From assembly GCA_001800605.1 (NCBI GenBank), contig MGVS01000037.1:1-33087 (forward strand): DNA of 33,087 nt, read 5' to 3'. This DNA is from Elusimicrobia bacterium RIFOXYD2_FULL_34_15 (lineage in GTDB: Bacteria; Elusimicrobiota; UBA8919). The number at the start of each line of letters is the position of its first letter. Position 1 is the first letter of the stretch. Of the stretch, positions 7,938 through 31,419 are shown piece by piece. The notes under the pieces were generated by a model. The model was not told the origin of the DNA. It did not search any database and saw only the letters and a list, made by a program, of their open reading frames with translations. A program made the translations under genes and the position numbers.

Positions 7938-7975
7938 ATTACACAGATTTAACAACAAGTCTTAATCTGTGTAAT
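7938..7975 (+). repeat. Inverted copies of the AATCTGTGTAAT repeat
   Basis: ATTACACAGATT (7938-7949) and AATCTGTGTAAT (7964-7975) are perfect 12-bp inverted repeats. The same word occurs twice before lnt (29839-29874) and in interrupted form at 23067-23192, so this is a dispersed family. More diverged copies seem to continue to about 7999. Confidence 0.75.
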
Positions 7976-7999
7976 CTATGTTGCTAATCAATGTAATCA

Positions 8000-10604: not shown

Positions 10605-11357
10605 ATGATAAATATTTGCCGTAAAGCAGTTTCTAAGTTGTTTAAATCTTTCTTATCTTTTACCAAGCCTGTCCTGCCGCCTATGGCGAGCCTCGCCCCT
10701 TTGGGGCGGGGGCGTGCGAAAATAGTCGAAGGATTACCCATTACTCGTTACTCGTTACCCGTTACCCATCACCCGTTACTGTCGTTCGTTACCCGTTACT
10801 CGTTACCCAGCCTGTCCCGATTCTTCGGGATTACTTTATTATTTTTTATCGGTTGTGCATCCCCGTATAAACCAACAACACAGGTACTTCCCCAGAATAT
10901 CAAAAAAGTTTCAATAGAAACTTTTAAAAACTCTACGGTATATTACGGCATTGAAGATAAACTTACTACAGCAGTTACAAACGAGTTTATACGTGACGGG
11001 CGGCTCGCCGTTGTAAATCCCGACGAAGCAGACGGTGTTTTATTTGGCGAAATAACAAGATATGTTTTGGAACCATTGACATATGACGAGAACCATGTTG
11101 TTAAAGAATATAAACTTTGGATATTGGTCAATATTTCTCTTATAGATAAAGCAAGAAAAGTTGTATTGTGGCAGGAAAAAAATCTTGAGGGCAATTACAG
11201 ATTTTTTATCGCAAATTTACCCGGAGGAACTACGGAAGAAGAAGCCAGGGAAATAATTTGGGATAAGCTATCCAGAAATATTTTAAAAAGAACAATTGAA
11301 GGCTTTGGCGCCGTCTCGGGTATAAGTGAAAAAAAAGTCCCGCCTAAAACGGAATAA
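10605..11357 (+). CDS. lptE: LptE-like outer-membrane lipoprotein with a repeat-expanded N terminus
   Basis: 250 residues. The mature part is an LptE-type domain: KKVSIETFKNSTVYYGIEDK, AVTNEFIRDGRL, EADGVLFGEITRY and NISLIDKARKVVLWQEKNLEG. LptE is the lipoprotein plug of LptD in LPS export. A lipobox FFIGC puts the lipidated Cys at residue 84, unusually far in. Residues about 21-74 are encoded by a stack of repeats (10668-10830), splitting what would be a normal lipoprotein signal peptide. The start at 10605 is fixed by GGGAGGA 5 nt upstream, so the repeats appear to be translated unless an internal start is used. leuS lies 1 bp upstream; holA follows after a repeat-filled gap. Confidence 0.8.
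   Translation: MINICRKAVSKLFKSFLSFTKPVLPPMASLAPLGRGRAKIVEGLPITRYSLPVTHHPLLSFVTRYSLPSLSRFFGITLLFFIGCASPYKPTTQVLPQNIKKVSIETFKNSTVYYGIEDKLTTAVTNEFIRDGRLAVVNPDEADGVLFGEITRYVLEPLTYDENHVVKEYKLWILVNISLIDKARKVVLWQEKNLEGNYRFFIANLPGGTTEEEAREIIWDKLSRNILKRTIEGFGAVSGISEKKVPPKTE
10668..10734 (+). repeat. CCTGTCCTG...GTCGAAGGAT element split by a second GC-rich palindrome
   Basis: Left piece CCTGTCCTG (10668-10676) and right piece GTCGAAGGAT (10725-10734) match the contiguous copy in leuS. Between them is a GC-rich insert containing GGCGAGCCTCGCC and CCCCTTTGGGG. This is an apparent element-within-element insertion in the lptE coding region. Confidence 0.75.
10734..10810 (+). repeat. Heptad array (TTACCCG/TTACTCG family) inside lptE
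   Basis: Consecutive 7-mers TTACCCA, TTACTCG, TTACTCG, TTACCCG, TTACCCA, TCACCCG, one irregular 13-mer, TTACCCG, TTACTCG, TTACCCA. It is translated as repeats of TRYSLP-like peptides. Inverse-orientation copies lie at 11373-11394 and 26581-26609. Confidence 0.85.
10811..10830 (+). repeat. TCCCGA/TCGGGA palindrome inside lptE
   Basis: CCTG then TCCCGATTCTTCGGGA, a 6-bp stem, immediately after the heptad array and before the hydrophobic core of the signal peptide. Same family as the elements at 4358-4375 and 31451-31472. Confidence 0.7.
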
Positions 11358-11372
11358 CCTCATAAGAATAAC

Positions 11373-11452
11373 GAGTAACGGGTAATGGGTAACGAAGAAA
11401 GAAAACAATCCGTTGCGAAAATTCTGTATACTGAGTACTGTATCCTGAATCC
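11373..11452 (+). repeat. Two heptad arrays between lptE and holA
   Basis: GAGTAACGGGTAATGGGTAA and two more bases (11373-11394) is the inverse of the array inside lptE. CTGTATA, CTGAGTA, CTGTATC, CTGAATC (11424-11451) is of the trpG-leader family and stops 11 nt before the holA ATG. No other feature was seen in this 106-bp gap. Confidence 0.8.
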
Positions 11453-11463
11453 TATTATATAAT

Positions 11464-12772: not shown

Positions 12773-14340
12773 GCGAAAATTTTAAAAAAGAATCTAAAGT
12801 AACAAAATATATCGGCTATGTTCTAACCGGAACAATGTTTTCCCGTATACTTGGCTATCTTCGCGATATGCTGGTCGGTTGGCTTTTCGGTGCCGGACTG
12901 TATGCCGATGCATTTTATGCCGCCCAGAGAATTCCTAATCTTTTCAGGCGTTTATTAGGCGAAGGCTCATTATCCTCGTCTTTTGTACCTGTATTTACCG
13001 ATTATATATCTACAAAAGATGAAGAAGAATCCAAAAAGCTTTTTAGTGTGGTTTTCACAACTCTTCTCTTTACTCTTTTGGTTGTAACTCTAATAGGTAT
13101 TGTCTTCGCTCCGCAGTTAACTAGAATTATTGCGTATGGATTTGAAAAAAATCCCGACAAACTTGCATTAACCATATCTTTAACACGTCTTATGTTTCCG
13201 GCTTTGCTTTTTGCGTGTATAGCAGCATTTCTTCTTGCTGTACTAAACTCTCTTAAATCGTTTTTTATACCCGCAGTATCTCCTGCTGTACTTTCCGTTG
13301 CCGAAATTGTTTTCATTCTTGGTATCGCCCGGTTTATTTTAAAAGAAAGTCAAATTAAAGGTTTAGCAATAGCGGTATTGGTCGGCGGATTATTACAATT
13401 CTTAATTATGATGCCATCAATTAAGAAACATGGGTTTTCGTTTAAACCAATTTTGAACTTTAATCATCCGGGACTTAAACAAATATTTTATTTAATGATA
13501 CCGGCAATGTGGGGAATATCTATTGACCAGGTAAATGCTTTTATTGATACAATATTTGCTTCCTTTCTAAAAGAAGGCAGTGTAACTGCACTTTATTATT
13601 CGAACCGGGTGATGCAGCTTCCGCTTGCTCTTTTCGGCATTGCTGTGGCTTCAGTATCATTACCTTTAATGTCAGCAAGTGTTTCCAAAAAAAATATAGA
13701 TGATATGAAAGATATGCTTGCATTTTCAATTAAAATATCATCGCTTGCTATTTTTCCTTCACTTATGGGATTAATAATTCTTGGTAAACCAATGATAAAA
13801 CTTCTATTCGAACATGGAAGATTTGATTCCAATGCAACTTTAATTACAAATTCTGCATTATTTTTTTATGCTTTAGGCCTGCCGGCGTTTGGATATGTAA
13901 AAATTTTTGCCGGAGGGTTTTATTCACTTAAAGAAACTAGAATTCCTGTGAAAGTCGCTACATTATGCATGATAACAAATGTTTTTCTAAATGCGATACT
14001 AATGCGTCCTTTAGGTGTAGGCGGACTTGCACTTGCAACTTCGATATCGTCATGGCTTAATGCTTCTCTTCTTTATATGTTTCTTAGAAAAAGAATCGGA
14101 AGTTTTGGAAGCAGAAAAATATTTTTCTCGCTTGTAAAAATAACTGTTGCTACTTTGACAATGGGTTTAGTATGTTATATTTTGTCTAATTATGTTTTCA
14201 GCAGCTTGGCATTAAATGTATTCGGAACGATAATTATAAGTTTTCTAACATATTTATTTATGACAAAGTTATTAAAAATTAAAGAAATGAAATCGGTTAT
14301 GTCTGTTTTAAAAAGGGAAGAACCAACCATAGATGAATGA
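12766..14340 (+). CDS. murJ: Lipid II flippase MurJ
   Basis: A 524-residue polytopic membrane protein that flips lipid II to the periplasmic face for peptidoglycan synthesis. The MviN/MurJ N-terminal signature is clear: GTMFSRILGYLRDMLVGWLF, ADAFYAAQRIPNLFRRLLGE and GSLSSSFVPVF. About 14 hydrophobic segments follow, and the later FARFDSNAT-type segment appears as LFEHGRFDSNATLI. No ribosome-binding site is evident and the ATG overlaps the rpsT -35 box, so opposing expression may interfere. It overlaps uvrC by 8 bp. Confidence 0.95.
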   Translation: MSSENFKKESKVTKYIGYVLTGTMFSRILGYLRDMLVGWLFGAGLYADAFYAAQRIPNLFRRLLGEGSLSSSFVPVFTDYISTKDEEESKKLFSVVFTTLLFTLLVVTLIGIVFAPQLTRIIAYGFEKNPDKLALTISLTRLMFPALLFACIAAFLLAVLNSLKSFFIPAVSPAVLSVAEIVFILGIARFILKESQIKGLAIAVLVGGLLQFLIMMPSIKKHGFSFKPILNFNHPGLKQIFYLMIPAMWGISIDQVNAFIDTIFASFLKEGSVTALYYSNRVMQLPLALFGIAVASVSLPLMSASVSKKNIDDMKDMLAFSIKISSLAIFPSLMGLIILGKPMIKLLFEHGRFDSNATLITNSALFFYALGLPAFGYVKIFAGGFYSLKETRIPVKVATLCMITNVFLNAILMRPLGVGGLALATSISSWLNASLLYMFLRKRIGSFGSRKIFFSLVKITVATLTMGLVCYILSNYVFSSLALNVFGTIIISFLTYLFMTKLLKIKEMKSVMSVLKREEPTIDE

Positions 14341-16348
14341 TTTTTTAAACCAAAAGTTGAAAAACTTGCCAAACCATCCCGGTGTCTATATAATGCGAGA
14401 CGCTTCAAGTAAAATAATATACATTGGTAAAGCAACATCCCTAAAATCCCGCGTAAAATCATACTTTGTTGAAAACATAAAAGATTTCAAAAATACATTT
14501 CTTGTAAAAACAGTCAGAAACATAGAATATATTCTTACAGAAAATGAGAAAGAAGCTTCTATCCTTGAAGAAGCTCTAATAAAACGTTTTCAACCGAAAT
14601 ATAACATAATCTGGAAAGACGACAAACGATATCCGTACATTAAAATCGGAAAAGAAAAATTTCCTGCGATAGAAGTAGTACGTATAAAAAAATCTGACGG
14701 AGCTAAATATTTTGGTCCATATCCGGACTCCACAGATATGCAAAAAACACTAAAATTAGTTAAAAGGATTTTTGGTTTACGCCCTTGTCAATATAATTTA
14801 ACCAAAAGAAAAAAAGAATGTCTGTATTATTTTATAAATAAATGCCCTGCACCTTGCATTGGAAAAGCTAACGAAGAAGAATATGTAAATATGATAGACA
14901 AAGTAAAAATGTTCTTATCCGGCAAAAACAAAGAATTGTTAAGAGCTCTTGAAAAAGAAATGAACATTTCAAAAAAATATCTTGATTTTGAAAGCGCAGC
15001 TAAGTTAAGAAATATTATCTTTGCAATAAAAAACACTCTAACCCGCGTAAATTTCAAGGAAACAACTATTGATAACATATTAATGAATATTGATAGGGCT
15101 TCGTATATTTCAGATTTATCAAAATTGTTAAATTCTAATGTTAACCGGATTGAAGGTTTTGATATCTCCAATATTTCAGGAAAATTTGCGGTAGGTTCCC
15201 TGGTTGTATTCACAAACGGATTCCCTGATAAAAAAGAATACAGAAAATTTAAAATTAAAACTGTTAAAAAAATAGATGATTTTAAAATGATTTTTGAAGT
15301 TATTAACCGACGTTACTCCGGTACTCTTGTTAAAAAGACTCCTATGCCGGATATGATACTTATAGACGGCGGAAAAGGCCAGCTTTCCTCCGCGATATCA
15401 GCATTGGAAAAAATTCCAAACATAGAAAAAATGCCTAAGGTTATTTCAATTGCCAAAAAAAATGAGGAATTGTTTGTTACGGGAAATCCTAAACCAATAA
15501 TTTTATCTAAAAATTCTTTAGCTTTAAACCTTATAAAACATATAAGGGATGAAGCCCATAGATTTGCAATATCATACCATAAACTACTGAGAAAAAATCT
15601 TTTCATAGCTTTTATAATATTTATTTCTACATTACAGCTCTTTTCAAAAGAAGGCACAATTTATCTAAAAAATGGAAAAACAATTGCAGGAGATATTACC
15701 AAGCTCGAGAACGGAAATTTACTGGTTGAAGTTAATAATTGCGGGATGGAATTTACAAACAAAGAAATAAAAAATATTGCGTATTCCAAAAACAAAGAAC
15801 AAAAAGAAGAAAACTTTTTACAAAAAATGAAAAACACTCAGAAGGCACAAGTTAAAGAAAAAATAAGAAATAGAAGATATGCATATGACCCCTTAATATA
15901 CACTTATGCAGATAAATACGGATTGGATCCGTCTTTTGTAAAAGCAGTTATAGAAGCAGAATCAAATTTTAATCAAGATGATGTTTCTTGGAAAGGGGCT
16001 ATAGGTTTAATGCAACTTATGCCTAAAACTGCAAAACAAATGAAGCTTAATCCAAACAATATAGAAGATAACATCAAAGGCGGCACACAATATTTGAATT
16101 ATATGTTATTGGAATTCGGAGATCCATCACTTGCACTTGCCGGTTACAATGCCGGTCCATATGCTGTAAAAAAATACGGCAACCAAATACCGCCATACAA
16201 GGAAACCAAAAATTATGTTGATACAGTCTTAAGAAATTATATAAAACATAAGCGGGATAAACAACTCTGGTATTTTGTTGATGAAAAGGGCTGCATTAAA
16301 ATCTCCGACAAACCAAAAGATAGAAGGTATAAGAGAGTTGAGAAGTGA
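14333..16348 (+). CDS. uvrC: Compact UvrC fused in frame to a lytic transglycosylase
   Basis: A 671-residue ORF. Residues 1-90 are the GIY-YIG nuclease (HPGVYIMRD, IIYIGKATSLKSRVKSYF). A four-Cys cluster follows (RPCQYN, KECLYYFINKCPAPC), then a UVR helix pair (about 203-240). The RNase H-like nuclease has GFDISNISG, LIDGGKGQLSSA and RDEAHRFAISYH up to about 420. Relative to typical UvrC of about 600 residues it lacks roughly 120 residues between UVR and GFDISN, and the C-terminal HhH domain. The frame then enters a hydrophobic segment (LFIAFIIFISTLQLF) and an SLT domain (about 515-640). The ORF overlaps murJ by 8 bp. Whether this is one fusion protein or two genes with a missed start is unresolved. 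Confidence 0.85.
   Translation: MNDFLNQKLKNLPNHPGVYIMRDASSKIIYIGKATSLKSRVKSYFVENIKDFKNTFLVKTVRNIEYILTENEKEASILEEALIKRFQPKYNIIWKDDKRYPYIKIGKEKFPAIEVVRIKKSDGAKYFGPYPDSTDMQKTLKLVKRIFGLRPCQYNLTKRKKECLYYFINKCPAPCIGKANEEEYVNMIDKVKMFLSGKNKELLRALEKEMNISKKYLDFESAAKLRNIIFAIKNTLTRVNFKETTIDNILMNIDRASYISDLSKLLNSNVNRIEGFDISNISGKFAVGSLVVFTNGFPDKKEYRKFKIKTVKKIDDFKMIFEVINRRYSGTLVKKTPMPDMILIDGGKGQLSSAISALEKIPNIEKMPKVISIAKKNEELFVTGNPKPIILSKNSLALNLIKHIRDEAHRFAISYHKLLRKNLFIAFIIFISTLQLFSKEGTIYLKNGKTIAGDITKLENGNLLVEVNNCGMEFTNKEIKNIAYSKNKEQKEENFLQKMKNTQKAQVKEKIRNRRYAYDPLIYTYADKYGLDPSFVKAVIEAESNFNQDDVSWKGAIGLMQLMPKTAKQMKLNPNNIEDNIKGGTQYLNYMLLEFGDPSLALAGYNAGPYAVKKYGNQIPPYKETKNYVDTVLRNYIKHKRDKQLWYFVDEKGCIKISDKPKDRRYKRVEK
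15592..16348 (+). other. Lytic transglycosylase (SLT) module within the uvrC ORF
   Basis: The C-terminal 250 or so residues look like a complete exported Slt-type protein: signal-like RKNLFIAFIIFISTLQLFS, a small beta-rich segment (IYLKNGKTIAGDITKLENG), then the SLT domain. That domain has the catalytic Glu in VIEAESNFN, then GAIGLMQLMPKTA, LALAGYNAGP and Y-V near NYVDTVLRNY. Such enzymes cleave peptidoglycan glycan strands. No ATG, GTG or TTG codon occurs at the natural beginning; CTG at 15592 is the best in-frame candidate and lacks a ribosome-binding site. The hydrophobic segment could also serve as a signal anchor with the UvrC half in the cytoplasm. Confidence 0.75.
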
Positions 16349-21671: not shown

Positions 21672-23042
21672 GTGAAAAAAATTCTAATATTCTTAACTTA
21701 CCTATTTCTGTATCTAAACCAACTTTATGCCGGTGTTCCAACCGCCCAATTTCTTCTTGTTGGTCAAGGTGCAAGAGAAACAGCGATGGGACAGGCAGCG
21801 GTAGCAAATTGCTACAATTATTCTGCACCTTACTGGAATCCGGGCGCATCCGCATTTTTAAAAAATCCTACACTTGGTTTTAGTTTTGCACAACTTCCTG
21901 AAGAAATTGGCAGCAGCTATGCATCATTTATATATCCTTTTAGGAAATTTGCAGTAGGATTATATTCAATAAGTGAAATAACTAGCGTAACAACCTATGA
22001 TATTTACGGCAATATAGGTCCTGATACTCAGGTATCTAATATTAATTCTGCATTTAATTTTGCATATAAAATCTTTGATTCTCTTGCTATCGGGTTAAAC
22101 TTAGGCTCTATTAGAATGAATTTAGGTAATTATTCTGCAACTGCACAGAGCAACAGTATAGGATTTATTTTTTTTAAAAACAGATTATCTCTTGGATTAA
22201 CATCTGCAAATATAGGTGGTGATATTACCTTTGTCGATACTCCTGAAAAACAACCAAAACTCATTAGATTAGGATTAGCATATTATTTTCTTGAAAAAAG
22301 AAACCTTACAGTTGCTTTTTCTACGGAAGAAGTTCAAGATGACGAAAACGCAGGTATTAGAGGCCTTGGCATAGAATATTATCCTTTAAAAAATATTGGA
22401 TTAAGACTCGGCTTAAAAAACACAAATGACGGTATTCCGACAATTACAGCAGGTCTTGGTTTAAATCTAAAACGCTGGGTCTTAGATTATGCATTCAATT
22501 CACAAGGCCAGGAATTACCAAATATGGATATTCACCGTATTGGTTTATCAGTTCGATTCGGAAAAATTGAAGGAGAAGAAGAAGAACCCGAAATAGAAAC
22601 GTACAAACCTACAAAAACCAGGCTGGTAAAACCAAAGAGAAAATCCGGAGAAATTATTAACATCGCAGTTTCAGATTTCTCGGGTAAAAATGTATCCCAG
22701 GCGGATGCTTCAATTGTTGCTGATTTCTTAAGAACAGAACTGGTAAACACAGGCATTTATAACGTAATAGAAAAAGCAAATATGGAAAAAGTACTGGCTG
22801 AAGCTGCATTCCAGCAATCTGGTTGTACAACATCTGAATGCGCGGTTCAAATAGGTAAAATTTTGAACGTTAAACAGATAGTTGTCGGAAACCTTTCCAA
22901 ACTAATGGATACATATTATATAACTGTAAACGTTGTTGACGTAGAAACAAGCAAGATTGTAGCGTCATACGACCAGGAAGCAATGTCGGCTAAAGAATTG
23001 AAAACTGCTTGCGGTTTACTGGCTCAAAGACTTGCACAATAA
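21672..23042 (+). CDS. PorV-like outer-membrane barrel fused to a CsgG-like domain
   Basis: 456 residues; GTG start at 21672 behind AGGAGGG. A signal peptide (to about residue 20) is followed by a PorV/UPF0164-type barrel. Its start, QFLLVGQGARETAMGQAAVANCYNYSAPYWNPG, is the hallmark of that family (quoted segment: LLVGQGARETAMGQA). The barrel runs to about 300, with GIEYYPLKNIGLRLGLK and a strand-like C terminus IGLSVRFGK. A charged linker (EGEEEEPE, KPKRK) leads to a CsgG/TolB-like domain (about 325-456; IAVSDFSGKNVSQADA, VIEKANMEKVLAEAAFQQSG, AVQIGKILNVKQIVVGNLSK). PorV in Bacteroidetes hands C-terminal-domain cargo to the type IX surface machinery. Its position behind a protein with such a tail suggests a similar job here. 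Confidence 0.8.
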   Translation: MKKILIFLTYLFLYLNQLYAGVPTAQFLLVGQGARETAMGQAAVANCYNYSAPYWNPGASAFLKNPTLGFSFAQLPEEIGSSYASFIYPFRKFAVGLYSISEITSVTTYDIYGNIGPDTQVSNINSAFNFAYKIFDSLAIGLNLGSIRMNLGNYSATAQSNSIGFIFFKNRLSLGLTSANIGGDITFVDTPEKQPKLIRLGLAYYFLEKRNLTVAFSTEEVQDDENAGIRGLGIEYYPLKNIGLRLGLKNTNDGIPTITAGLGLNLKRWVLDYAFNSQGQELPNMDIHRIGLSVRFGKIEGEEEEPEIETYKPTKTRLVKPKRKSGEIINIAVSDFSGKNVSQADASIVADFLRTELVNTGIYNVIEKANMEKVLAEAAFQQSGCTTSECAVQIGKILNVKQIVVGNLSKLMDTYYITVNVVDVETSKIVASYDQEAMSAKELKTACGLLAQRLAQ

Positions 23043-23067
23043 GACATCTTATAAAAGAAAGATGTCT
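23042..23067 (+). repeat. Hairpin after the PorV-CsgG gene
   Basis: Perfect 9-bp stem AGACATCTT / AAGATGTCT with an 8-nt loop, starting in the stop codon. No T-run follows, so it is at best a weak terminator or an mRNA-end stabiliser. Confidence 0.5.
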
Positions 23068-23192
23068 GATTACACAGACCTGCCTGACGGTAGGCAGGTT
23101 AAGGCACGACGGTAGTATCTGTTTAATCGTCTTTAACAATCTGCCCGTCCTCCGCAGTAGCAGACTACTGCTACGGAGGATGGATGTAATCG
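23067..23192 (+). repeat. AATCTGTGTAATC-family array interrupted by palindromic elements
   Basis: GATTACACAGA is followed by the palindrome CCTGCCTGACGGTAGGCAGG (23079-23098), then ATCTGTTTAATCGTCTTTAA, CAATCTG, a 41-nt insert (23144-23184) and TGTAATCG. The insert has paired TCCTCCG/CGGAGGA and CAGTAG/CTACTG arms. The uninterrupted arrangement (CGTCTTTAGTAATCTG joined directly to TGTAATCG) is at 29851-29874. Confidence 0.8.
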
Positions 23193-23221
23193 AGAGCGGT
23201 GATGACATTCTCAACGCTCTC
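23192..23221 (+). repeat. GAGAGCG/CGCTCTC inverted repeat upstream of the TlpA-type gene
   Basis: 7-bp perfect arms separated by 16 nt, ending 11 bp before the ATG at 23233. It could be an operator, a hairpin or a repeat remnant. No ribosome-binding site or convincing promoter was found in this 190-bp gap. Confidence 0.4.
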
Positions 23222-23232
23222 ATTAAATAGCT

Positions 23233-24576
23233 ATGAAAAAAATATTAATATTAATCTGTTTTTTGTCGGCAGGGACATTTGCGTTTGCTAAATTAATGAT
23301 AGGAAACAAAGCACCTGGGTTAATACTATCTGACATGAATGGTAAAAGAATATCACTTACTGCCATTCTTTCAGATAATAAACCTGTAGTACTTTCTTAT
23401 TTTGCGACATGGTGCCAGCCTTGCCTTAAAGAAATACCGCATCTGCAAAATCTTCAGGCAAAAGGAAAAGTAAAAATTATTTTAATCAATATTGACAGCC
23501 TGCCTAAAGAAAAAGTTGCTGAATTCTTAAAACAAAATAATATCACATTACCCGTATTAATGGATCCTGAATCTAAAATTACAGGGGAAAACTTTGAAGT
23601 TCTAAAAGCGGGCAGAGCCAGTATTCCTAAATTGTTTTTACTATCACCAAGCGGAATAATTAGATTGATTGTAGATGGTTTTGATGAAAATATTGAGAAA
23701 ATTCTGGAAGAGAACATTACTCTTATTGAAAAGGAAGAATTGAACAAACCTAAAGAACTTGCGGTTTTTTTCAGTAATTCAACCAATGGGTACCTAGAAT
23801 CCTGCGATTGCCCGGCAAATCCGTATGGTGGATTGGTAAGGCGGGCAACTTATCTAAAACAACAACGCGAAAAATATCCTAATAATATACTGTTGGATTC
23901 CGGTGATTTGCTGCCTTTATATGCTAACGATATTATTGCTGACTATATTTTTAAAACATATCAAATTATGAATTATGATGCTATCGGTATAGGTGATCAG
24001 GAAATTAGTTTTGAAAATTTTGTTTCCAGTATGGACAAATACAAACTCCCATTCCTATCTTCAAATATAAATTATTGCGAAGGAAAGAACTGTATGTTTT
24101 TAACCGCTCATGATAAAATCATTGAAAGACAAGGTTTAAAAATAAAATTGCTTTCTGTCACGCATCCCGACGTTTTTGCATTATTCCCGGACAAAATAAC
24201 AAAAAAATTGAATATTTTAGCTATTGCCGATATTTTATTTGCTATCAATAAAAAAGATTGCGATTTATTAGTTTTAATTTCTCATTCGGGTTTTGATGCT
24301 GACAAAGAAATTGCTGAAAAATTTAAAGATATCGATGTCATTATCGGCGGCCATTCGCAAACTTATCTGACGAAGCCAAATAAGGTTGGCAATACCCTCA
24401 TAGTTCAAGCAGGCGGAAATTGTCAGAATATCGGAAAACTTGTTATTAAATTTGATGAAAATAAGAAAATAACATCTTATGATTATGAGCTGGTGCCTCT
24501 GACAAAAGACATTCCGGATTATCCGCCGGTAAGAAGTTTAATAGACGAATATAAAAATACCACAAAGAAAAAATGA
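23233..24576 (+). CDS. TlpA-type thioredoxin fused to a UshA/5'-nucleotidase-like metallophosphatase domain
   Basis: 447 residues. A signal peptide (about 1-19) is followed by a TlpA/ResA-like thioredoxin domain (about 23-160) with active site FATWCQPCLKEIP (Cys61 and Cys64) and the cis-Pro SIPKLFLL. From about 175 a metallophosphatase-like domain begins: STNGYLESCDCPANPYGGLV, LLDSGDLLPLY, ISFENF, LISHSGFDAD and IIGGHSQTYL. The first metal motif DxH is not seen and the usual GNHE is replaced by GDQE, so phosphatase activity is doubtful. The CDC pair after GYLE is characteristic of a subgroup of such proteins in envelope redox contexts. The following gene overlaps by 4 bp (ATGA), so the two are surely coupled. 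Confidence 0.82.
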   Translation: MKKILILICFLSAGTFAFAKLMIGNKAPGLILSDMNGKRISLTAILSDNKPVVLSYFATWCQPCLKEIPHLQNLQAKGKVKIILINIDSLPKEKVAEFLKQNNITLPVLMDPESKITGENFEVLKAGRASIPKLFLLSPSGIIRLIVDGFDENIEKILEENITLIEKEELNKPKELAVFFSNSTNGYLESCDCPANPYGGLVRRATYLKQQREKYPNNILLDSGDLLPLYANDIIADYIFKTYQIMNYDAIGIGDQEISFENFVSSMDKYKLPFLSSNINYCEGKNCMFLTAHDKIIERQGLKIKLLSVTHPDVFALFPDKITKKLNILAIADILFAINKKDCDLLVLISHSGFDADKEIAEKFKDIDVIIGGHSQTYLTKPNKVGNTLIVQAGGNCQNIGKLVIKFDENKKITSYDYELVPLTKDIPDYPPVRSLIDEYKNTTKKK

Positions 24577-26571: not shown

Positions 26572-26580
26572 ATAAATATA

Positions 26581-26707
26581 GTAACGGGTAACGGGTAATG
26601 AGTAAGGGTGTATCTTAATAACTGTATCCTGCTTGTCCGCCAACGACTCCTTGTCCGCCAAAGTCCCAGTGGTGGAAGTGGCGGATATTCCGTATTCTGT
26701 GTACTGA
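26581..26707 (+). repeat. Heptad arrays with a nested GC-rich palindrome upstream of secA
   Basis: GTAACGG, GTAACGG, GTAATGA, GTAAGGG (26581-26609) are followed by a CTGTATC-family array whose pieces ACTGTATCCTG (26621-26631) and CGTATTCTGTGTACTGA (26691-26707) flank a TCCGCCA...GTGGCGGA palindrome of the leuS/lnt family. The array ends 7 nt before the secA ATG. Confidence 0.8.
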
Positions 26708-29838: not shown

Positions 29839-29874
29839 AATCTGTGTAATCGTCTTTAGTAATCTGTGTAATCG
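29839..29874 (+). repeat. Tandem AATCTGTGTAATCG repeat before lnt
   Basis: Two direct copies of AATCTGTGTAATCG separated by TCTTTAGT, ending 6 nt before the lnt ATG. This is the uninterrupted reference for the split array at 23067-23192. Confidence 0.8.
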
Positions 29875-29880
29875 TTGTAT

Positions 29881-31419
29881 ATGAAAAAAATATTTTTATG
29901 TTTATTATCGTCGTTACTCCTTCTTTTATCTTTTCCTAAAATATCATTTTGGCCATTAGCATGGATTTCACTTGTACCTCTCTTATCAGTAATATCAAAT
30001 GAAAAACCTTTAAAAGCATTTCTATACGGAATTTTAACAGGAATTGTTTTTTATTGCGGAATTTTATATTGGATAGTTCCAACTTTTTCTGCCGCCGGCG
30101 AACCAAATATTATCGGCATTCTTGTTCTCCTTTTATTGGCAATATATTCAGCATTATATTATGGAATTTTCTGTCTGTTCTATTCTAAAAACTTCAAACA
30201 CAGTTTGATACTGCCGGCTTTCTTATGGGTTTCTTTAGAACTTATTCGCACTCATTTATTCTCAGGTTTTCCGTGGGCATCATTGGGATATTCCCAATGG
30301 AATTTCTTACCTATAATACAGATTTCCGAATTCACAGGCGTATATGGAGTATCTTTTTTAATAATATTGGTGAATGTTATATTAGTACACAGTATACAGT
30401 ATACAGTATACAGTTTAAAAGATATAGGAAACAAGACACAGCACACTAGATTCAGGATTCAGAATAATATTACAACAGCATTAATTGTTCTTTTTTGTTT
30501 AGGATTTGGTGCCATTAAACTCTATAACCCTTCCGCCACTACTTCTTTGGCGGACCCGCCAACAACTCAGTGGCGGGATAACCCAAGAATTGTCACAATT
30601 GTTCAAGGTAATATTGACCAATATAAAAAATGGGATGAAAAATATCAACAAGAAATCGAAAACATTTATTCCGAGCTTTCCGTTTCGAACTCAAAAAATT
30701 CAGATTTAATAGTTTGGCCGGAATCTTCAATACCTGGATTTTTAAGAATCGATCCAAAAATCTATAACTGGATCAAAGAACTCGCAAATAAAACTAAAAC
30801 ACAGTATTTAGTATCCTCAAATGATTTTAAAGACAATAAATATTATAATTCTGCATTTCTAATATCCAAGCAAGGCGAAGTTATTGGTGAATATTCAAAA
30901 GTCCATCTTGTCCCATTTGGAGAATATGTACCTTTAAGAAAAACAATTAGTAAATTTATTAAAGTAATTAATGAAATAGGTGAATTTGCTCCCGGAGAAA
31001 AATATAATGCTCTTGATTCTTCTGCAGGCAAACTTGGAGTGAATATCTGTTTTGAATCTATATTTCCAAATGAAATTAGAAAATCAATAAATTCAGGAGC
31101 AGAAATCATTGTTAATGTAACAAATGACGCATGGTATCTTAAAACATCCGCACCTTACCAGCACTTTACAATGAACATTTTTAGGGCTGTAGAAAATAGA
31201 AGGGAAGTAGTAAGAGCTGCAAATACCGGAATCTCAGGCTTTATTGATTCTTATGGTAGAATAAAATCAAAAACTGAAATATTCAGAACTGCAGCACTAT
31301 CGGATAAAATAATACCATTAAATCATATTACCTTTTATACAAAATATGGTGATATTTTTTCTTATTTATGCCTGTCAATAACAATATTATTTCTTATCAT
31401 ATTTTTCTTCAAACCTTAA
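29881..31419 (+). CDS. lnt: Apolipoprotein N-acyltransferase with repeat-encoded insertions
   Basis: About 512 residues from the ATG at 29881. Lnt adds the third acyl chain to lipoproteins in the inner membrane. Several N-terminal membrane helices precede a periplasmic nitrilase domain with catalytic Glu in IVWPESSIPG, Lys in YSKVHLVPFGEYVPLR and Cys in GVNICFESIFP. Two stretches are repeat-encoded: HSIQYTVYSLK to FRIQNN (about 170-196) between two helices, and SATTSLADPPTTQWRDN (about 217-234) between the last helix of this block and the RIVTIVQGNI start of the nitrilase fold. Neither disrupts the active site. Together with lptE and the lipoprotein genes it confirms a diderm envelope. Confidence 0.95.
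   Translation: MKKIFLCLLSSLLLLLSFPKISFWPLAWISLVPLLSVISNEKPLKAFLYGILTGIVFYCGILYWIVPTFSAAGEPNIIGILVLLLLAIYSALYYGIFCLFYSKNFKHSLILPAFLWVSLELIRTHLFSGFPWASLGYSQWNFLPIIQISEFTGVYGVSFLIILVNVILVHSIQYTVYSLKDIGNKTQHTRFRIQNNITTALIVLFCLGFGAIKLYNPSATTSLADPPTTQWRDNPRIVTIVQGNIDQYKKWDEKYQQEIENIYSELSVSNSKNSDLIVWPESSIPGFLRIDPKIYNWIKELANKTKTQYLVSSNDFKDNKYYNSAFLISKQGEVIGEYSKVHLVPFGEYVPLRKTISKFIKVINEIGEFAPGEKYNALDSSAGKLGVNICFESIFPNEIRKSINSGAEIIVNVTNDAWYLKTSAPYQHFTMNIFRAVENRREVVRAANTGISGFIDSYGRIKSKTEIFRTAALSDKIIPLNHITFYTKYGDIFSYLCLSITILFLIIFFFKP
30388..30466 (+). repeat. Heptad arrays inside lnt
   Basis: Words CAGTATA, CAGTATA, CAGTATA, CAGTTTA begin two bases into the array, and CAGCACA, CTAGATT, CAGGATT, CAGAATA follow after a short spacer. 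This is the inverse orientation of the trpG-leader family. The 79 bp are translated in frame. Confidence 0.85.
30531..30577 (+). repeat. CCGCCACT...AGTGGCGG palindrome inside lnt
   Basis: Outer 8-bp stem CCGCCACT / AGTGGCGG and an inner stem TTGGCGG / CCGCCAA with a 2-nt loop. It encodes SATTSLADPPTTQWR in frame and shares words and peptide (ADPP) with the leuS element. Confidence 0.85.

Follow-up and report, generated by a model that had tools for sequence, protein, structure and literature searches.

The sequence analysed here (the window) is a stretch of 33,087 nucleotides from Elusimicrobia bacterium RIFOXYD2_FULL_34_15, the genome of which (2.47 Mb in 119 contigs) is hereafter called G000. 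A copy of a composite repeat, hereafter called the GATTACA or host repeat, is found in the gap between two genes, the first with its stop at 23042 and the second with its start at 23233; one unit of this copy is split by a 41-nt imperfect palindrome, hereafter called X (Table 1). The RNA fold of positions 23043-23232 is strong (z -7.75). Elsewhere in the window, an open frame of 671 amino acids (14333-16348) was read by eye as a UvrC-like protein that lacks its normal C-terminal portion and is joined to a lytic-transglycosylase-like domain, and intergenic low-complexity arrays of the TAACGGG and CTGTATCCTGTGTACTG types are found on both strands (1766-1872, 10738-10808, 11424-11459, 26580-26608 and 30378-30420).

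Table 1 Coordinates of X, the host repeat and a second palindrome in the window
Feature	Position	Strand	Description
X	23144..23184	+	41-nt imperfect palindrome; arms CCCGTCCTCCG / CGGAGGATGGA; 3-nt bulge in stem
Host unit split by X	23138..23191	+	AATCTG^TGTAATC; halves 23138-23143 and 23185-23191
Composite host repeat copy	23043..23221	+	Outer hairpin GACATCTT...AAGATGTC, GATTACA/TGTAATC units, second hairpin GAGAGCGG...CGCTCTC
Empty host unit	7964..7976	+	AATCTGTGTAATC; outer hairpin GTGATTGTTT...AAACAATCAC adjoining
Empty host unit	29839..29851	+	AATCTGTGTAATC
Empty host unit	29861..29873	+	AATCTGTGTAATC; the empty site of the initial annotation
20-nt palindrome	23079..23098	+	CCTGCCTGACGGTAGGCAGG; unrelated to X; in the window host copy at GATTACACAGA^TTAAGGC

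X has the ends CCCGTCC and GGATGGA and is bordered in the window by CGTCTTTAACAATCTG on its 5' side and TGTAATCG on its 3' side. As single-stranded DNA it is predicted to fold into a hairpin of 16 pairs (-14.6 kcal/mol, z -5.55 relative to shuffled sequences) with a one-sided 3-nt bulge in its stem. The X pattern has one match in the window (0.00 expected), and TCTGTGTAATCG, with up to two mismatches, has 10 (2.18 expected), a number reached in 0 of 100 shuffles. A chance palindrome or chance flank match was ruled out by the shuffles, reversed controls and the fold z score. No Rfam RNA family reached its gathering score across the window, nor did the host repeat match one, and six loci compared with known RNA families gave one chance-level match (E 0.74), far below the gathering score. 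In the right arm of X, GGAGGA pairs with TCCTCC, which makes an effect on translation conceivable, if speculative. In 9 of 21 filled loci (L033 and L037 left out), X is followed after 14-43 nt by the start of an open frame of at least 60 residues; for the window copy the distance is about 48 nt.

The initial annotation had described a 41-nt palindrome splitting a repeat, with an empty counterpart at 29851-29874. The split is borne out by the intact form of the unit, AATCTGTGTAATC, of which there are 200 exact copies in G000 and 105 in a genome of the same genus, Elusimicrobia UBA9627 (G001), with none in the reversed controls. The empty site also exists, although its coordinates were slightly off (within about 10 bases; Table 1). 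Exact units were counted in six further family members (G002-G007; 26, 85, 10, 7, 20 and 10, respectively), and the core unit occurs family-wide in Elusimicrobiota and in some other phyla. X was not found in these six genomes despite their host units, and its full two-ended pattern is present in 3 of 340 genomes of the phylum (G000, G001 and G011, the last with a 36-nt variant), so the host repeat is older than X. In the fetched G000 loci and the window, 58 clusters were seen of a composite repeat with variable outer hairpins around GATTACA/TGTAATC units. The outer ends gave a stem score of at least 7 in 38 of 65 cases, compared with 1.8 % of shuffles, and comprised 27 different stem sequences. 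Inspection by eye had suggested that the repeat might be a 5' leader, its first hairpin preceded by a -10 box. This idea was dropped on weak statistics: TATAAT with up to one mismatch was present in 7 of 13 cases (3.85 expected), and 52 of the 58 clusters had a gene start no more than 130 nt away on one side or both, compared with 211 of 290 random placements.

Nine copies of X were found in G000 with the 19-nt left arm (up to three mismatches; reversed control 0) in the search for copies and empty sites that the initial annotation had suggested. Eight are within the host unit, six of them at AATCTG^TGTAAT and two at AATTTG or AATCTA^TGTAAT, and the ninth is in a second, different repeat at GTGGATG^AATGCGAA. 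G001 has 14 copies (reversed control 0), 10 in the host unit, three in this second repeat and one in a third palindrome. All 18 host-unit copies of the two genomes share one junction and one orientation relative to the unit. On our reading, the two length variants keep to different places in these genomes: all 15 copies of 41 nt are in the outer unit, and all 3 copies of 42 nt are in the inner unit. Two weak matches in G002 and G008 were read through and are not X. The initial annotation had named two outcomes as speaking against its reading, a 41-nt sequence unique in the genome and a flank match at chance level, and neither was seen.

The copies of X are 94-95 % identical to each other. For the sequence around them, 30 nt beyond the unit were compared on the left and right in 113 G000 copies, 8 filled and 105 empty. 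Identity (left/right) was 0.49/0.48 for filled pairs, 0.49/0.46 for filled-empty pairs and 0.48/0.47 for empty pairs, with 0.43/0.40 for shuffled flanks. In a permutation test, a fraction of 0.37 of 5000 random sets of eight, drawn from the 113, matched or exceeded the similarity of the filled set. The closest flank relative was an empty copy for each of the eight filled copies, which is also the chance expectation with 105 empty copies. Between filled AATCTG[X]TGTAATC and empty AATCTGTGTAATC, nothing was duplicated and nothing lost; the short target duplications that the initial annotation had proposed to look for are absent from the filled AATCTG^TGTAATC sites of G000 and G001. The fetched loci contain 105 intact units and none of five altered forms expected as footprints of imprecise excision.

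Orthologous sites were compared for 4 of the 23 filled sites, and one was a clean empty site. Upstream of recJ, G000 has AATCTA[X]TGTAATC and G001 has ...AATCGTCTTTAGAAATCTA|AGTAAT..., with the host kept and X absent. The local variant AATCTA is common to both orthologues up to the junction, and there was therefore no left-side co-conversion here. At a second site (L023 in G000, L106 in G001), the host is in both genomes and X in G001, but a whole unit has been lost in G000, so the site is ambiguous. The remaining two are ispF, where G001 is filled, and the window site, where G000 is filled; at each, host and X are both missing from the other genome. The shared junction and orientation, the unrelated flanks and the empty recJ orthologue argue that X is a discrete REP-like mobile palindrome, younger than its host. 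The claim of the initial annotation that GC-rich palindromes move as discrete units is thereby upheld, also by a second palindrome (below); the pair of sites inside the window, offered as direct evidence of it, is on its own suggestive and not direct proof.

The second, 20-nt palindrome was found in 13 distinct contexts in the fetched loci: five at GATTACACAGA^TTAAGGC, three in the loop of an outer hairpin, one elsewhere in the host and four outside it.

A 19-mer from the right arm of X has exact matches in 28 stretches in eight assemblies: Elusimicrobia UBA9627 (11), Omnitrophota CSMAG_2090 (4), Parcubacteria LacPavin (4), Gracilibacteria Tobar (3), CSMAG_2758 (2), CSMAG_2684 (2), Patescibacteria mb.144 (1) and WWE3 (1). 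Across assemblies the variants are 35-44 nt long, with constant ends and a differing apex. The hosts are repeats typical of each genome, such as AAATG^AAAAATT in Omnitrophota and TTGTTTG^TATCTTG and ACTTTG^GACTTTGG in CSMAG_2684, and the Parcubacteria copies are in the loops of other palindromes. The dinucleotide 5' of X was TG in 42 and CG in 8 of 60 distinct oriented copies (YG in 50 of 60), the exceptions being mostly from Parcubacteria. In G048, three copies of X are in a GGACTTT tandem array, the period of which, judged by eye, is unbroken across X, and no target duplication was seen in these (GGACTTT)n hosts. Linkage of variant and context is also frequent within each of the other genomes, and three copies in Gracilibacteria G042 have long flanks in common on both sides. 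In G045 (L153), a palindrome of about 40 nt is within X, which in turn is within a GTTAACGG-type repeat, giving three levels of nesting. A phage or plasmid vector was considered and rejected: the right-arm 19-mer had 0 matches in viral contigs, and X was unmatched in phage and plasmid collections.

G000 has five Y1 transposase genes, and the model of the REP-associated tyrosine transposase (REP_Tyr_transpos) matches all five proteins, one (G000:C1) above the curated NCBIfam cut-off and four below it. The initial annotation had proposed a REP-type (RAYT) transposase in association with the palindrome; RAYT-like genes are present in the genome, but none is flanked by X. The X arm (up to one mismatch) was in 0 of 46 Y1 loci of this and other genomes, all five G000 loci included, which rules out X as a RAYT-flanked REP for the Y1 loci examined. 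Y1 genes were found in 5 of the 8 assemblies with the right-arm 19-mer (one of them G001), and no Y1 match was found in the X-bearing G045, G047 and G048, which are MAGs of completeness not given. At the foot of X an unpaired GTAG is absent on both strands; its 5' end is CCCG and its 5' flank mostly TG or CG. TnpA-REP is described as cutting single-stranded REP hairpins at dinucleotides selected via the GTAG motif (PMC8266576). X has a bulged stem and a dinucleotide preference but no GTAG; an HUH transposase acting in trans is therefore the likeliest mover, though this assignment is tentative and short of even odds.

A RAYT-like gene lies between gatC-like and gatA-like genes (named by eye) in both G000 (G000:C1, L054) and G001 (G001:C53, L060), and the middle part of the G001 copy differs from that of G000. 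Y1 loci of Omnitrophota G041 (L161) and Gracilibacteria G042 (L158) have near-identical palindrome pairs unrelated to X, which are candidate dedicated REPs.

The RAYTs studied so far use an unpaired GTAG foot. Like the GTAG REPs and REPINs that accompany RAYTs, X is a short, GC-rich, bulged, intergenic and non-autonomous palindrome in a genome with RAYT-like genes; unlike them it lacks both the unpaired GTAG foot and inverted doublets, flanks no RAYT and has a low copy number. The target-site duplication of a MITE derived from a DDE transposon is missing in X. The small dispersed repeats (SDR) of cyanobacteria, from the 2008 work of Elhai et al., are reportedly very small and mobile by the criterion of filled and empty sites, with a mover that is not known. 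X resembles SDR in its small size, in having both filled and empty sites and in the lack of a known mover, but it has another sequence and is about twice as long as SDR are said to be.

CGTC-tagged REPs are reported by Di Nocera et al. 2013 (PMC3733652) to be without a dedicated transposase and in some cases to be inside other palindromes. X likewise has CGTC near one end and no dedicated transposase; in its predicted fold, however, CGTC is base-paired and not an unpaired tag, there are 16 pairs where CGTC REPs have an 8-9 bp stem with a loop of 4-5, and the nine G000 copies are singletons, none adjacent, in contrast to HH dimers. The same source describes REPs nested in palindromes of another kind, among them GTAG-23 of T. 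roseum, for which there are hundreds of empty targets, and as further cases GTAG-15 of A. variabilis and CGTC-1 of H. neapolitanus (PMC3733652). X is similar to these as a palindrome in a palindromic target, empty targets being known for T. roseum, and differs from the cases described there in its orthologous empty site, its fixed orientation and the occurrence of one palindrome in several phyla. X has a REP-like way of life but fails defining features of both GTAG and CGTC REPs. A literature search gave no evident account of repeats of this kind from Elusimicrobia or candidate phyla, which is not proof that there is none.

On balance, the best overall account, somewhat favoured over its rivals, is that X, a palindrome of about 41 nt, is mobile, REP-like and non-autonomous, was inserted into the older GATTACA repeat and is moved by an HUH transposase in trans; that X moves as a discrete unit is much the firmer part of it. 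The GATTACA repeat would have spread through the family first, and X would then have inserted precisely, in one orientation and with no target duplication. The folded single-stranded hairpin may have been processed by an HUH (Y1, IS200/RAYT-type) transposase in trans, perhaps since lost from some hosts. From HUH chemistry a fixed orientation, a short 5' target preference, the lack of duplication and a bulged stem are expected, and hairpin repeats are proposed to serve as landing sites through harmless insertion and single-strand exposure. The linkage of X variant to unit position (15/15 and 3/3) is against free insertion, which does not predict it. At L073 and L079 of G001 the left flank is common and the right flank different, a sign that recombination between copies also occurs; together with the linkage of variant and context, this suggests that copying between repeat copies probably supplements insertion. 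Taken further, X could have spread without any transposase, by a replication template switch at the hairpin end or by short-tract gene conversion from filled copies, with junction and orientation fixed through being copied. As the whole explanation, and equally as the mover of X, this is doubtful, if well worth weighing: it is favoured by the same linkage, there and in the other genomes, by the lack of a dedicated transposase and of a Y1 match in three X-bearing genomes, and by the left-only likeness of L073 and L079, but homology to the right of X is just about 7 nt (TGTAATC), recJ keeps AATCTA to the junction, and the presence of X in unrelated repeats of other phyla is not explained.

Joint amplification of host and X as a composite, the empty copies belonging to another subfamily, is highly improbable. 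Such spread would have clustered the filled copies, whose similarity among themselves does not exceed their similarity to empty copies, and the empty recJ orthologue retains the host; the joint lack of host and X opposite the window and ispF sites and the three G042 copies would fit it. Least credible, to the point of being nearly negligible, is the reverse order, in which the repeat originally contained X and lost the hairpin by deletion to give empty copies. Hairpins are prone to deletion and L023 has lost a whole unit where G001 has X, but the repeat is family-wide without X, empty copies outnumber filled ones by 200 to 8, and AATCTGTAATC, the expected product of a deletion between the TG repeats on either side, was found 0 times in the fetched loci. 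That X is confined to the genus, its occurrence in other phyla reflecting binning contamination or convergence, is also highly improbable: although all records are MAGs and a single study series (CSMAG) supplied 3 of the 8 assemblies, apex variants and host contexts are particular to each genome, mostly in several copies, and the isolate names indicate at least six separate studies.

How transposase-less CGTC REPs spread is stated as an open question by Di Nocera et al. 2013 (PMC3733652). The filled sites, 200 empty targets and orthologous empty site of X, together with a 41-nt unit that can be synthesised, make the question testable. X may possibly be among the smallest known mobile DNA units, a geneless hairpin of about 41 nt (35-44 nt), with ends conserved and apex free to vary, that inserts in one orientation 3' of YG, crosses phyla, lands in the intergenic repeats native to each new genome and is moved by a borrowed HUH transposase or by template switching. 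Its cross-phylum distribution suggests horizontal travel of minimal palindromes among candidate-phylum bacteria and, if this account is true, nested palindromes would turn whole intergenic regions into mosaics of X-like units.
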